Assembly (NCBI GenBank): GCA_022071945.1
Contig: JAJVIN010000037.1
Location: 1-57,017, forward strand
Direction: 5' to 3'
From: Thermoanaerobaculia bacterium
GTDB lineage: Bacteria; Acidobacteriota; Thermoanaerobaculia; UBA5066
Length of the DNA stretch: 57,017 bases
Shown here: in pieces, positions 27,788 to 33,441 of the stretch
Layout: every line of letters starts with the position of its first letter
Numbering within the stretch: position 1 is the first letter of the stretch
Position numbers and translations under genes: made by a program
The notes under the pieces: model-generated
Told to the model about the DNA's origin: nothing
Databases searched by the model: none
What the model saw: only the letters and a program-made list of their open reading frames with translations

Positions 27788-28519
27788 TCAGCCTCGGCCG
27801 AGGCTTTCCAAGACGGATTCGTAAGCCCTCGGGAGCGGAGCCTCGAGGCTGAGACCGATCTCGGGCAGGACCAGCCGGGCCGCGTGCAGGAGCGGGAACG
27901 CCAGGTCTCTCAGGAGCCCCCGGACACCGGGGTCCCGGATCCCGCGCCACCGGAGCGAGCCTCCATACAGGGAATCCCCGGCGATGGGGTGCCCGCGAGA
28001 GGCGAGATGGACCCGGATCTGGTGTGTGCGGCCCGTCTCGGGGAAAAGCTCGAGATCCGAGAGCCCCGTGTGGCGCCGCAACGTCTGGTAGTTCGTGATG
28101 GCGGGTTTGCCCTCGGGGTCGACCTTCATCTTCCGGCCATCCCGTGGATCGCGGCCGAGCGGGGATTCGAATCTCCCCTTGGCGGGAACCGGACTCCCGA
28201 AGACGAGGGCCCGGTAGGTCTTCTGCACCGCCCGTTCTTGAAAGAGGCGCGAGAGATCGCGGTGGACCTCCCTCGTCTTGGCCAGAAGAACCAGTCCCGA
28301 GGTCCCGACGTCGAGACGGTGGACCATCAGGGGAAGGGGTTCGGGGATCTCGACGCCCGCGGCCGCGAGGAGATTGCGAACCACGGTCGCCTCGTCCCGG
28401 CCCTGCCGGGACGAAACGGCCATGGACACGCCGGCCGGCTTGTCGATGGCCAGGATCCGCTCGTCCAAGAAAACCGGTGCCCTCGACCCCTGAGAGGGGT
28501 GGAGGTCCCGGTCAGACAC
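27788..28519 (-). CDS. RluA-family pseudouridine synthase
   Basis: 243 residues. Isomerises uridine to pseudouridine in RNA. The catalytic Asp70 lies in VHRLDVGTSGLVLLAK, the RluA-type signature; LAIDKPAGVSMAV, QKTYRALVFG, FPETGRTHQIRVHLASRGHPIAGDSLYG follow in family order. No S4 domain precedes it. Its start overlaps the end of the ABC ATPase gene by eight bases, so it may be the last gene of that transcript. Whether it acts on rRNA or tRNA cannot be read from the sequence. Confidence 0.93.
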   Translation of the reverse strand: MSDRDLHPSQGSRAPVFLDERILAIDKPAGVSMAVSSRQGRDEATVVRNLLAAAGVEIPEPLPLMVHRLDVGTSGLVLLAKTREVHRDLSRLFQERAVQKTYRALVFGSPVPAKGRFESPLGRDPRDGRKMKVDPEGKPAITNYQTLRRHTGLSDLELFPETGRTHQIRVHLASRGHPIAGDSLYGGSLRWRGIRDPGVRGLLRDLAFPLLHAARLVLPEIGLSLEAPLPRAYESVLESLGRG

Positions 28520-29273
28520 GCCTCTCGACTCCCAGGATCTCGAAGATCTCGTCCTTGAGGGCCCGGAACTCGGCCAGGTCTGGATCGCGCGGTCTCGGAA
28601 GGGGATTGTCGAGGATCTTCCGGATCCGGGCCGGCCGCCGGGTCATGACCGCGATCCGGTCGGCGAGCTCGACGGCTTCCTCGACGTCGTGGGTCACGAG
28701 AAGGCACGTCTTCTTCGTCGCACGGCTGATGCGCCAGACCTCGCGCCGCATCTCCAATCGCGTGAAGGCATCCAGGGCGCCAAACGGCTCGTCGAGGTAG
28801 AGCACCTCCGAGTCGACGGCCAGGGCGCGCGCGAATTCCACCCGCTGCTTCATGCCTCCCGACAGCTCCGACGGCAGGGCCCTTTCGAATCCCTCGAGGC
28901 CAACGAGCTTGATCGTCCTCTCGACGATCTCCGCGCGCTCCCCGGGGCTCTTGTGGCGGAGCCCGAACCCGATGTTCTCGTTCACGCTGAGCCACGGGAA
29001 GATCCCGGTCTCCTGGAAGACGAAGACTCTCTTGGGAGACGGACCCGAGAGCGGCTCGCCGTCGATCTCGATCCCTCCCGACGTGGGCGTCTCGAACCCA
29101 GCGATGCAGTTGAGGAGTGTCGACTTGCCGCACCCGGAGGGCCCCACGATCGCGACGAACTCTTCCGGAGCGACGTCGAGATCGACCTCATCGAGGACGG
29201 TCAGCATCTGGCCCTGCTTCTTGAAGGCCTTGCTGACGCTCTTGACACGGATCTTTGCTTCTTGCCTCGTCAT
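28512..29273 (-). CDS. NitT/TauT-type ABC transporter, ATP-binding protein
   Basis: 253 residues from ATG at 29273 (MTRQEAKIRVKSVS); the longer frame upstream is a shadow of the permease. Walker A GPSGCGKSTLL, Q-loop FQETGIFPWLSV, signature LSGGMKQRVEFARAL, Walker B VLYLDEPFGALD, H-loop LLVTHDVEEAVELADR: all intact. Energises import with the permease and binding protein encoded just upstream. It lacks the AAA-associated C-terminal domain whose fragment lies at 7459-7563. Five bases separate it from the permease. The likely substrate class is an organic anion such as nitrate, sulfonate or a related compound. Confidence 0.93.
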   Translation of the reverse strand: MTRQEAKIRVKSVSKAFKKQGQMLTVLDEVDLDVAPEEFVAIVGPSGCGKSTLLNCIAGFETPTSGGIEIDGEPLSGPSPKRVFVFQETGIFPWLSVNENIGFGLRHKSPGERAEIVERTIKLVGLEGFERALPSELSGGMKQRVEFARALAVDSEVLYLDEPFGALDAFTRLEMRREVWRISRATKKTCLLVTHDVEEAVELADRIAVMTRRPARIRKILDNPLPRPRDPDLAEFRALKDEIFEILGVERRV

Positions 29274-29278
29274 GACGG

Positions 29279-30058
29279 TCACCGCCTCAGGATTCCGCGG
29301 CGCCTGAGCGCCCGCTCTTCCAGGGCCCGCATCATCGTGTCGAGCACGAGTCCGATCAGGCCGATCAGGACCATCGCCGCCACGACGAGGTCGTACCGCA
29401 GGTTGTTTCGAGCGTCGTTGACCTGGTAGCCCAGACCGGACTGCACGCCCAGCATCTCGGCCGCCACCACGACGACCCAGGAGATCCCGAGGGCCAGGCG
29501 AAGTCCCGTGAGGATCTGCGGCAGAGACGCCGGCAGGAGCACATCCGTCACGAGCGCCACCCCCTTGACCCCGAAGTTCGAAGCAGAGCGGAGGAACTTC
29601 TGGTCCACGGTGGCGATTGCCGAGGCGGTCGCGGTCGTGATGGTGAAGAACGACGAAAGGAAGATCAGGAAGATCGCGGCCACGTCGCTCGGTTCGAACC
29701 ACCGGACCGGCCCGAAGAGGAGCGTCGCGATCGGGAGCCAGGCGATGGGCGAGATGGGCCGGAGGAGCTGGACCGGAGGGTTGAAAAGCTGGTTCAGCTC
29801 TGGAAAGCGGCCGAGCCCGACGCCGAGCGGGATCCCGATCAGGGTCGCCAGGAGAAATCCCCAGGCCACCCGGAAGACCGACGCCACGATGTTCTTCACC
29901 AGGATCCCCTGGCGAAAGAGCTCGAAAAGCCCCTGCAAGGTCAGCCAGGGCCCCGGAATGTCCGTCCGCTTGTTCCCGAGGGTCAGGAGGTGCCAGATGA
30001 GGATGAAAAGCGCCACGCCGAGAACCGGGCGAAAAAGTCTGCGGATCTTGTTGACCAT
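29279..30058 (-). CDS. NitT/TauT-type ABC transporter, permease
   Basis: 259 residues from ATG at 30058 (MVNKIRRLFRPVL), which overlaps the stop region of the binding-protein gene by a couple of bases. BPD_transp_1 type with about six membrane helices: VLGVALFILIWHLL, VAWGFLLATLIGIPLGVGLG, ISPIAWLPIATLLFG, VAAIFLIFLSSFF, GLRLALGISWVVVVAAEML and VVAAMVLIGLIGLVLD. The EAA-like loop is around AASNFGVK / LPASLPQILTGLRLAL. Forms the channel with the ATPase next door. Confidence 0.93.
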   Translation of the reverse strand: MVNKIRRLFRPVLGVALFILIWHLLTLGNKRTDIPGPWLTLQGLFELFRQGILVKNIVASVFRVAWGFLLATLIGIPLGVGLGRFPELNQLFNPPVQLLRPISPIAWLPIATLLFGPVRWFEPSDVAAIFLIFLSSFFTITTATASAIATVDQKFLRSASNFGVKGVALVTDVLLPASLPQILTGLRLALGISWVVVVAAEMLGVQSGLGYQVNDARNNLRYDLVVAAMVLIGLIGLVLDTMMRALEERALRRRGILRR

Positions 30059-30059
30059 C

Positions 30060-31202
30060 TCACTTCCCCGTCGCGAAGGAGGCGTCTGTGTAGTCCTCAA
30101 AGCCGAACGGGTCGTCCTTCGTCACCGGCCGGAAGTCGAAGTAGCCGAGCCTCTCGGCGTAGCGCTGGATCTCCTCCATGTCCTTCCTGGCCGGAATCAG
30201 GTTCGTGTACTTCACCCGGTCGGGCGGCTTGGAGAGGACGAACTTCATCAGCTCGGGGTCCTGGTTGTAGTACTCCTTGCGGGCCGCGATCGCGGCCGCC
30301 TGCATCCGGGGCACGTGCCCGAAGCTCGCGTCCAGATAGATCTTCCCTGGATCCTTCCTTTGAGGCTTCGCGTGGGCGGGCAGGAGCTCGACCCCCGGAG
30401 CGGCCTCACCGTCCGGCTGGTCGATCCAGAGACCGGATTTCGAGATCCCGGTGACCAGCTCCTGAACGAGGGGCCGGTTGTGCTTGATCAGATCCTCGTG
30501 CACCGCGAGGACGCACGAGATGAACTCGGGCCAGGCGTCCTTCGTGTAGTAGAGGACGCGGCCATAGCCCTCGATCTCCGTCTTGGCCGGAAACGGCTCC
30601 CCGCAGAGGAATGCCTCGAATTGCCCGGTCTTCAGACCCGACGGCATTTCCGGCGGCGGGTAATCGATCAGCGTGATGTCTTTCGGAGCGAGTCCGGCCT
30701 GCTCCCGCAGGCGCTCCACGAGAATCCGCTGGTTGGAGTACCGGTGCGGGATGGCGATCCTCTTGCCCTTCAGGTCCGCGAACGTGTGGTAAGGCGAATC
30801 CGAGCGCACCATCATCGTCGTGCCGTCCCGGTGCCCGAGATGGACGATCTTCAGGGGGATGCCCTTCCGGTTGATCACCATCGCGAGAGGCGCCAGGATG
30901 AACGTTGCCTTGAGATTCCCCGCCATGACGTCATCCGAAATCGACGGGAAGCCCGTGTACTTCTTCGAGCGGAAGACGGAGCCCGAGTCGGAGTGCGAGG
31001 TCACCCAACTGGTGACCGGACACGTCAGATGTCACGTGACGGGAAGGAACCCGACGACCAGGTCGCCCCGGAGAGGGACTCCTCCCTGTCTCATCCGGAG
31101 AAGAAAGGTCCCGAATCCCTTGTGAGTGAGCTGGATATGGGCAACGGAAACCACCGCCAAAAAGACGGCCAGAGCGCCGCCCCACCTGAGAATCGCTTTC
31201 AT
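30060..31202 (-). CDS. NrtA/SsuA-like ABC substrate-binding protein with an in-frame UGA, candidate selenoprotein
   Basis: Read from ATG at 31202, the frame gives a signal-anchor start (MKAILRWGGALAVFLAVVSV), then LVVGFLPVT, then TGA at 31034-31032, and continues in the same frame with HLTCPVTSW and 323 more residues to the stop at 30060 (380 residues with UGA decoded). The part after the UGA is a normal binding protein: GFPSISDDVMAGNLKATFILAPLAM, IPLKIVHLGHRDGT, TFADLKGKRIAIP, and a full C-terminal domain. From memory, relatives read PVTCHLTCPV here, so UGA replaces the first Cys of a CxxxC pair and Cys61 remains. A strong hairpin follows (see next entry). The neighbours are its permease and ATPase. 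An ORF caller would start at 31004 (GTG) and lose the signal peptide. The alternative is a nonsense mutation; TGA is an ordinary stop elsewhere in the window. Confidence 0.8.
30999..31017 (-). promoter_or_regulatory. Bacterial SECIS-like hairpin 14 nt after the in-frame UGA
   Basis: On the coding (minus) strand GGTCACC-AGTTG-GGTGACC gives a 7-bp perfect stem with a five-base loop. The loop lies 22-26 nt after the UGA. A lower GTG/CAC stem can extend it across a small internal loop. Known bacterial SECIS elements have the apical loop about 16-37 nt after UGA, with a G in the first two loop bases. Here the loop starts A-G-U, like the G-U of the E. coli fdhF loop. The structure is within the coding sequence, as in other bacteria. 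Confidence 0.7.
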
Positions 31203-31234: not shown

Positions 31235-31669
31235 TCAGTCCGAGGGCTCGTCCCACTCCTGACGAGGCCGTTCCGGCTCTCTGCCAACCCTTGCGACCGC
31301 CTCGGCCTCGATCTCGAGGTGGAAGTCGTCGGAGAAGAGGCCAGCGACCCGGACCGCGGTCAAGGCCGGCCCCCCGGCGGGGAAGGCCTCCCGGAAGGCT
31401 CGAAAGAAGGGCTCGGCGATCGCGGGATCGACGTAGTACACCCTCAGGCGCACGACGTCCGCCAGGCCAGAGTCTGCCCGCGCGAGGACCTCTCCGAGCG
31501 TCTTCAGGATCGCTCGCGTCTGGCCGCACGGATCGGAGGAGACGGGCCTTCCGTCCGGACCGCTCGCGACGGTGCCAGAGACGGCGATGAACTCCCCTCT
31601 CCGGACCAGCCGCGCGTAGCCAAACTCCTTTTCCCAGGGGCTTTCGGTCTCGATTCGAAACCTCGTCAT
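31235..31669 (-). CDS. RidA (YjgF/UK114) family protein
   Basis: 144 residues from ATG at 31669. RidA proteins deaminate reactive enamines/imines made by PLP enzymes, or serve as related hydrolases. Visible: WEKEFGYARLVRRGEFIAVSGTVA, GQTRAILKTLGEVLARADSGLADVVRLRVYYVD, AFPAGGPALTAVRVAGL, LEIEAEAVA. The active RidA Arg normally lies in R-x-x-x-x-V before the last strand; AVRVAGL gives a candidate Arg. The start overlaps the stop of the GGDEF gene by four bases (ATGA), so it is translated with it. Confidence 0.9.
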   Translation of the reverse strand: MTRFRIETESPWEKEFGYARLVRRGEFIAVSGTVASGPDGRPVSSDPCGQTRAILKTLGEVLARADSGLADVVRLRVYYVDPAIAEPFFRAFREAFPAGGPALTAVRVAGLFSDDFHLEIEAEAVARVGREPERPRQEWDEPSD

Positions 31670-33441
31670 GATCCGGACACCTTCTTCAGCTCGGACGAGC
31701 TCTTCTTCCTGAACGGATTGATGGCGGGCAGGCCGGAGGCAGAGCTCGCCGGGGGCTCGCCCTCCGCCAGGACGATCTGGTTGCGCCCGTTCGCCTTGGC
31801 CTTGTACAGGGCGGCGTCCGCCTGCCGCAGCCACGCGGTGACCGAGATCGTCGAACGAACGTTGGGGTCGAAGAGGGCCACCCCGATCGAGGCGGTGGCC
31901 CCTTCCGGGACTCCGGAGACCCGCAGCGTCGAGACCGTGAGCCGGACTCTCTCCAGACACAGGATTGCCTGCTGGTCGTTGACTTCGGGCAAGAGGATCG
32001 CGAACTCCTCGCCGCCGAATCTTGCGACGAGGTCCGTCTCCCTGGTGCTGGCGACGAGGGATTTCGCCGTGGCCAAGAGCAGCCGGTCACCCGCCAAGTG
32101 TCCGAACTTGTCGTTGAACCTCTTGAAGTGGTCGAGGTCGAGGAGGGCGAGCGCCACGGGGCTCCCGCTCCGGCGAGACCGGGCCAGCTCCAGCGTGATC
32201 CGGTCGAAGAGGACGACGCGGTTCGCAAGACCGGTCAGAGCGTCGGTCGAGGCCTGGTGGCGCAGGACCGCGAAGCGGTCCGCCATCGCGGGGAGATACG
32301 ACATCATCAGGAGGAAGAACGCCGGGGTGAAGAGGCTGAAGGCGTAGGTCGCGGCCTCGAAGGACCGCAGGTCACGGACACCATCGTGGATGGCCGCCGC
32401 GAGCGTGAGGGCACTCGCGATGAGAAGGGCCTTCGACCAGGGGGCTCTCCGCCGCGCGTCCTGGATCAGCATGAATCCCGTCTCGGAAAAGACCGCGATC
32501 GAGAGGACCGACGAGGCGGGGACGGCAAAGGAAATGTCGTCGACCCGGGGCCAGAACCAGCAGACGAGGATCCCCACGGCCTGAAGGACGAGGATGATCC
32601 GGTAGTGTCCCCGGAGCGCCCTCTCGAAGAAGCTGTGGAAAAAGAGGGCGTAGAGGGCCGGGACGAGAAACCCCATCGAGATGTGTACCCGATGGAACAT
32701 CGAGAGGGGAAAGCTCGAGAAGACCCAGATCGAAAGCGCGGAAACGAGGCCCGCGGCGGCCGTGAGGGTCGTCAGGAAGTAGAAGAGGGCATCCGGCTGC
32801 GACCGGTCGCGCAGATAGAAGAAGAGCGCGAAGAGTCCCAGGGAAGCCAGGGCGGACGCGAGAAGGGCGAGCGGGAGCTCGGCCCGGGTCTTGCGGAGAA
32901 ACGCACGCGCCACCGAGTCGAGCACCGGAGCAATCGTCAGTCCGCCCCCCATGGGACCCGGGTTGTGAACCCTGATCGCGAGCCAGTGCGGACCCTGGCG
33001 GACCGAGAGGGAAGCCGGGAGCTGGTAGATCCGGGCGTACCGGGTCGCCTTGTCGTAGTTGGGCGGGAAGCCTCCCGTCCGTCCGACGAGCTGACCGTCG
33101 AGGTAGACCTCGTCCGCGTCCCGGATCTCGTCGAACACGAGGGCCAGAGCGATCGGGGAGATCGACGGATCGAGCTCGAATCGGAGCCGGTACCAGACGG
33201 TTCCGTGTTCGGAGATCCCCTGGTTTTGCCAGGTTCCCGGCACCCGGATCGGACGCCAGGTGACCGAGTCGAGTCCGTCGACGCCCAGCGCCGGGTCCGA
33301 GACGGTGATCTCCCACGTGCCCGAGAGGCTGGCCGGGAGGCGGTCGACGAAGAGCCCCCCTCCCTCCAGGCCCGAAGCCAGTAAGAGTCCCGGCGCGGCC
33401 AGGAAGGCGTGCGCGAGGAGAAGGACGAGGGCTCGAATCAC
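31666..33441 (-). CDS. Membrane receptor diguanylate cyclase (7TMR-DISM-like plus GGDEF)
   Basis: 591 residues. A signal peptide (LVLLLAHAFLAAPGLLLA) precedes a periplasmic beta-sandwich at ~30-180 (WRPIRVPGTWQNQG, YRLRFELDP, VYLDGQLVGRTGGFPPNYD), as in 7TMR-DISM extracellular domains. About seven membrane helices cover 190-400. The GGDEF domain runs from ~410: DALTGLANRVVLFDR, LDLDHFKRFNDKFGHLAGD, inhibitory site RETD at 467-470, and active site GGEEF at 476-480, so it should make cyclic-di-GMP and be product-inhibited. The signal it senses is unknown. Its end overlaps ridA; 31 bases separate it from the SPOR gene upstream. Confidence 0.92.
   Translation of the reverse strand: MIRALVLLLAHAFLAAPGLLLASGLEGGGLFVDRLPASLSGTWEITVSDPALGVDGLDSVTWRPIRVPGTWQNQGISEHGTVWYRLRFELDPSISPIALALVFDEIRDADEVYLDGQLVGRTGGFPPNYDKATRYARIYQLPASLSVRQGPHWLAIRVHNPGPMGGGLTIAPVLDSVARAFLRKTRAELPLALLASALASLGLFALFFYLRDRSQPDALFYFLTTLTAAAGLVSALSIWVFSSFPLSMFHRVHISMGFLVPALYALFFHSFFERALRGHYRIILVLQAVGILVCWFWPRVDDISFAVPASSVLSIAVFSETGFMLIQDARRRAPWSKALLIASALTLAAAIHDGVRDLRSFEAATYAFSLFTPAFFLLMMSYLPAMADRFAVLRHQASTDALTGLANRVVLFDRITLELARSRRSGSPVALALLDLDHFKRFNDKFGHLAGDRLLLATAKSLVASTRETDLVARFGGEEFAILLPEVNDQQAILCLERVRLTVSTLRVSGVPEGATASIGVALFDPNVRSTISVTAWLRQADAALYKAKANGRNQIVLAEGEPPASSASGLPAINPFRKKSSSELKKVSGS

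Follow-up and report, generated by a model that had tools for sequence, protein, structure and literature searches.

Does a TGA within the gene of a bacterial substrate-binding protein end translation, or is it read as selenocysteine (Sec)? And if it is read as Sec, what would a binding protein do with it? Transport proteins with selenium are rare, and little is understood about them. We address these questions for a gene in a stretch of 57,017 nucleotides from a Thermoanaerobaculia bacterium (contig JAJVIN010000037.1; from here on, the window). With a probability of about 0.9, comparison with related genes suggests that it encodes a selenoprotein with Sec at residue 57 that belongs to a NitT/TauT-type importer. 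This figure covers the selenoprotein and the transporter part of our reading.

One in-frame TGA in an otherwise open gene

The gene is located on the minus strand (30060..31202), starts with an ATG at 31202 and ends with a normal stop codon at 30062-30060. Its 380 residues include read-through of the UGA. As the initial annotation claimed and translation bears out, codon 57 (31034-31032, minus strand) is an in-frame TGA in an otherwise intact frame: it is the sole interruption, and the frame is open from there to the normal stop. The read-through product (MKAILRW...LVVGFLPVT-U-HLTCPVTSW...) begins with a membrane helix at the N-terminus, after which comes a substrate-binding fold of the NMT1/SsuA-like kind. 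Two further positions are nearly invariant in the family. Codon 61 (31020..31022, minus strand) is the second Cys of a U-x-x-x-C motif (U57-H-L-T-C61), and codon 230 (30513..30515, minus strand) is the Cys of a conserved FISC motif.

Seen once, in one assembly, a TGA might be a nonsense mutation, the mark of a pseudogene or a sequencing error, with the downstream frame a mere relic. Our search for relatives returned full-length homologues with a single TGA inside the match, and in the alignment these TGA codons share a single column (PVT-*-HL(T/A)CPV). With all sets combined, 34 genes have TGA at column 57 and 28 have Cys, all of them from sampled genomes of the Planctomycetota and of the window's own phylum, the Acidobacteriota. 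The Cys that the initial annotation expected in homologues at this position is indeed there, and a search for UGA at the same codon elsewhere brings the count to 34 genomes from two phyla. Downstream of the UGA the genes are under purifying selection, with dN/dS values of 0.06-0.34 between UGA genes. A dead stop does not explain an identical TGA codon in so many genomes, nor selection on what follows it, nor a hairpin (described below) that is kept only together with the TGA. Because the TGA column is conserved and the sequence behind it is selected, a pseudogene or sequencing error can be set aside, and we consider a dead stop of any kind extremely unlikely. The recurrent UGA very probably marks a real selenoprotein family.

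Sec and Cys are not the only residues found at column 57. Thr occurs in two distant paralogues and His or Asp in relatives further removed, and all of these retain the Cys at position 230. On a tree of 40 sequences, five changes between Sec, Cys and other residues are needed to explain the column. Hence, the residue has been exchanged repeatedly. One of the Thr forms is a paralogue in the window's own genome (L034/L094, C14:43491-44462; PVITNLACPL at the Sec column), which retains the other two Cys positions; L093 has the same form. Plasmid-borne relatives have His (Ruminococcus albus) or Asp (Deinococcus) at this position, and there is no Sec form in these two plasmid relatives.

Selenocysteine machinery

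If the UGA is read as Sec, the host has to be able to make and insert this amino acid. The genome that contains the window encodes SelA, SelB, a tRNA-Sec with anticodon TCA and two SelD genes, so that the sel genes whose presence the initial annotation made a test of its proposal are all there. One of the two SelD genes (L051 and L052) itself contains an in-frame TGA. The other has no TGA; its open frame of 750 residues is possibly a fusion.

The same association holds across genomes. Every one of the 34 UGA-form genomes has a SelB that scores above its family cut-off, versus 15 of the 28 Cys-form genomes. The 13 Cys-form genomes in which SelB is missing include all four Rhodopirellula-type genomes. 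Fisher's exact test, calculated with 27 Cys genes (14 with and 13 without SelB; the Cys gene L138, from a SelB-bearing genome, is additional to these), gives p=3e-6, a value that is descriptive since the genomes are related.

A hairpin downstream of the UGA

Bacterial Sec insertion elements (bSECIS) are modeled as hairpins with a stem of 4-16 bp, a loop of 3-9 nt, a G in the first two loop positions and a spacing of 16-37. The window gene contains such a hairpin at 30999..31017 on the minus strand, with a 7-bp stem (GGUCACC/GGUGACC) and the loop AGUUG. On the DNA, GGTCACC occupies 31017-31011, the loop AGTTG 31010-31006 and GGTGACC 31005-30999. A spacer of 14 nt (31031-31018) separates the UGA from the stem, and the apical loop begins 21 nt after the UGA. 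The hairpin fits the model, with G then U at loop positions 2-3, and is the perfect stem that had been described from the window.

How much weight this hairpin can carry is a different matter. When we shuffled codons while keeping both protein and codon usage of the window gene, an equal or better stem at that place arose with P~0.03, and when the search took in the whole SECIS range, a hairpin as good arose with P=0.07. Hence, the window hairpin by itself is weak evidence, which qualifies the reading of the initial annotation. Across UGA genes, conservation and covariation give it the weight that it lacks in isolation.

Among the UGA genes with the peptide PV(T/A)SWVT, the window gene and 25 relatives, 26 of 26 have a stem of 6-8 bp at the same place together with the loop AGTTG. 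The Ser codon in the loop is AGT in every one of the 26, while AGT makes up 14 of the 334 Ser codons further on in those genes. In four genes a C-G pair in the middle of the stem is swapped for G-C, with both sides changed. The covariation score of 0.157 (0.060 for shuffled alignments) is reached by none of 500 shuffles and lies above all slid controls. Six Cys genes share this peptide or come very close to it (four with PVTSWVS and two with PVTSWVT). Their stems measure 0-3 bp, and the hairpin is found in none of the six; the Cys gene L138 (PVTSWIT) was left out of this scoring. Present in 26 of 26 UGA genes and in 0 of 6 Cys genes of matched peptide, the hairpin is far beyond chance. This contrast at matched peptide is the strongest single argument that the hairpin acts as a SECIS, as far as sequence comparison can tell. 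It also amounts to a clean natural experiment, in which the peptide is the same and the hairpin is retained only alongside the UGA.

One further Cys gene (L124, PVTNWVT) retains a 6-bp stem with the loop AACTG, which lacks the early G. It looks like a recent change from Sec to Cys with a decaying SECIS.

UGA genes without a standard hairpin

Eight UGA genes (L016-L020, L023, L024 and L091) lack any hairpin compatible with the bSECIS model. Seven of them form a second clade with the peptide PVTDYIS, and one (L091) represents a third lineage. Their genomes contain SelB and a SelD with a TGA. A search with RNAalifold for an alternative hairpin in the second clade returned nothing convincing, with energies of -1.8 to -6.9 kcal/mol and inconsistent structures. 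These genes either carry a SECIS of another type or depend on some other decoding aid; the eight are thus candidates for a non-standard SECIS.

One could also argue from the second clade that the UGA is read as a residue other than Sec, through a suppressor tRNA or an altered genetic code. Such a reading would have to accommodate a column that alternates with Cys, a genome that has SelA, SelB, SelC and SelD, and the use of TGA as the terminal stop of genes, the window gene among them. We therefore think it very improbable.

Decoding as Sec is supported by the Cys homologues, the sel genes, the UGA in 34 genomes and the conserved, covarying hairpin. In mechanistic terms, a SelB-type elongation factor and Sec-tRNA would insert Sec at the UGA instead of terminating translation, and the hairpin 14 nt after the UGA would assist this insertion. 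The product would be a periplasmic substrate-binding protein, anchored in the membrane, with Sec at residue 57. Cys would replace Sec where selenium is not used.

The transporter and its possible ligand

The binding protein gene is part of a unit. The next gene downstream (29279..30058, minus strand) encodes an ABC permease (BPD_transp_1), whose best NCBIfam match is SaoP (158 bits, under the cut-off of 295). The third gene (28512..29276, minus strand, start approximate) encodes an ABC ATPase (ABC_tran); its matches to ntrCD (226 bits) and, second best, SaoA (221 bits) are both under cut-off. We compared 27 neighbourhoods, and nearly all of them place homologues of permease and ATPase beside the binding protein. 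Binding protein, permease and ATPase would together form a NitT/TauT-type importer, the direction of transport being presumed. At the level of sequence, our comparison shows a conserved UGA that exchanges with Cys, a conserved hairpin, the Sec machinery and this conserved transporter unit. Beyond permease and ATPase, no gene is conserved across the 27 neighbourhoods, and hence gene context offers no clue to the substrate. In the window, a RidA-like gene (31235 on) precedes the transporter, and upstream of it lies a gene for a GGDEF membrane protein (31666-33441, minus strand).

The binding protein matches Pfam NMT1_2 with an E-value of 9.9e-27 (94.8 bits versus a cut-off of 24.7) and NMT1 with 56.0 bits (cut-off 20.5), and the AlphaFold2 model has a mean pLDDT of 86 and a pTM of 0.82. 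In the predicted fold, strand 1 is followed by a first helix that starts with Sec57, and Cys230 is part of a strand that comes after the lobe crossing. We take these to be places that usually line the cleft in the NMT1/SsuA-like fold. If so, the most likely ligand of Sec57, Cys61 and Cys230 is a soft metal, a metalloid or an organometal. Residue 57 varies between Sec, Cys, His, Asp and Thr beside a constant Cys230, which looks like a ligand site that has been tuned.

The closest solved relative by both sequence and fold is a Staphylococcus aureus ABC ligand-binding protein (PDB 3un6; E 3.6e-46; Z 35.6, rmsd 2.1 over 282 residues). It shares the Cys at 230, but at the positions of Sec/Cys57 and Cys61 it has His and Leu, respectively, and it is not a selenoprotein. 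It is zinc-bound according to its entry title only, and a metal acquired during crystallisation would prove little. Import of metals (e.g., Ni2+) has been proposed for NitT/TauT transporters (COG0715/0600/1116) encoded beside clade B Ni-CODH genes (PMC6344411). These transporters have the same three parts. The R. albus plasmid relative (L115:2896-6627), with His at the Sec column and cooS directly after it, is one of them and matches the query at 31.6% over 56% of its length. It differs from the window family in that His, and in that cooS is not among the conserved neighbours of the window family. The tuned look of the site, the zinc in the title of 3un6 and the neighbouring cooS favor binding of a metal, metalloid or organometal, as does the permease's top NCBIfam match, since SaoP belongs to the Sec-assisted organometallic (SAO) system. 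We would give roughly even odds to Sec57, Cys61 and Cys230 forming a selenol/thiol site of this kind.

Alternatively, Sec57 could be a redox or nucleophilic residue instead of one that holds a metal. It would then either pair with Cys61 or Cys230 in a selenenylsulfide or attack a ligand that contains sulfur or selenium. A redox function is assumed for the majority of known selenoproteins (PMC13188914). Among the structural neighbours of our model are DszB (a C27S mutant by its title) and MqnD (Cys11 modified by its title), and judging from alignment start offsets their Cys residues lie no more than about 4 residues from model position 57. The permease and ATPase that accompany the protein do not fit such a role well. 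His, Asp or Thr at the column with Cys230 kept suits a changing ligand better than a catalytic nucleophile, and UxxxC differs from the UxxC motif that is usual in redox proteins. A redox or nucleophilic role thus ranks second to metal, metalloid or organometal binding, and we regard it as rather unlikely.

Comparison with known systems

The family described here occurs in at least 34 sampled genomes and comes with natural Cys counterparts. Standard gene calling is expected to truncate its genes at the UGA. The family provides a test case for why a binding protein pays for selenium, and it points to a possible non-standard SECIS.

Several known binding proteins have the same overall fold and transporter type. 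NrtA/CmpA, SsuA and TauA (Z 26-34) bind oxyanions or sulfonates, and the window protein scores far under the SsuA and TauA cut-offs. AioX is a structural neighbour (Z ~17) with a substrate-binding-protein fold. It binds arsenite, a thiophilic metalloid, as part of a sensor system. Unlike the window protein, it belongs to another family and is no selenoprotein.

Among the 119 prokaryotic selenoprotein families tabulated in 2026 (PMC13188914), the substrate-binding ones listed are BtuF and, from the SAO system, SaoX and SaoB. The window family is unmatched in this table, but an earlier mention elsewhere is possible, for example in S9 Table of PMC4807772, a planctomycete genome paper in which that table gives planctomycete selenoprotein candidates. 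No NCBIfam model (June 2026) claims the window protein. It is tempting to conclude that we are dealing with an undescribed family of selenoprotein ABC importers in Planctomycetota and Acidobacteriota, with a Sec/Cys/Cys site for the capture of soft metals, metalloids or organometals (a selenium or mercury species is one possibility) and one sub-lineage whose SECIS is unlike the standard bacterial model. Taken as a whole, this picture is tentative, and we rate it slightly below even odds.

The initial annotation knew of no established selenoprotein in this transporter family. This has to be corrected, as an NMT1-like binding protein with Sec is already on record, namely SaoX of the SAO system (Haft and Gwadz 2023, listed in PMC13188914). 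It is the nearest known relative of the window protein: it too is NMT1/SsuA-like, contains Sec (in a UxP motif) and is served by an ABC permease and ATPase. Could the window protein simply be SaoX under another name? They have the broad fold family in common, and SaoP and SaoA are the best and second-best matches of the permease and ATPase. However, the window protein scores 46.6 bits against the SaoX profile (NF040735), for which the cut-off is 300, and no further sao-type gene lies beside its transporter. The position of the selenium also appears to differ. We introduced single Cys substitutions into the R. albus relative and scored them against the SaoX profile: Cys gained 5.3 bits at the column that corresponds to residue 55 and lost 0.9 bits at that of residue 57. 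By this test, which is indirect and has a loose alignment at the N-terminal end of the profile, the conserved Cys/Sec of SaoX seems to lie two residues upstream of residue 57. Identity with SaoX is hence highly improbable. Given the low score and the apparently shifted column, the window protein is SaoX-like in a broad sense, yet it is not SaoX.
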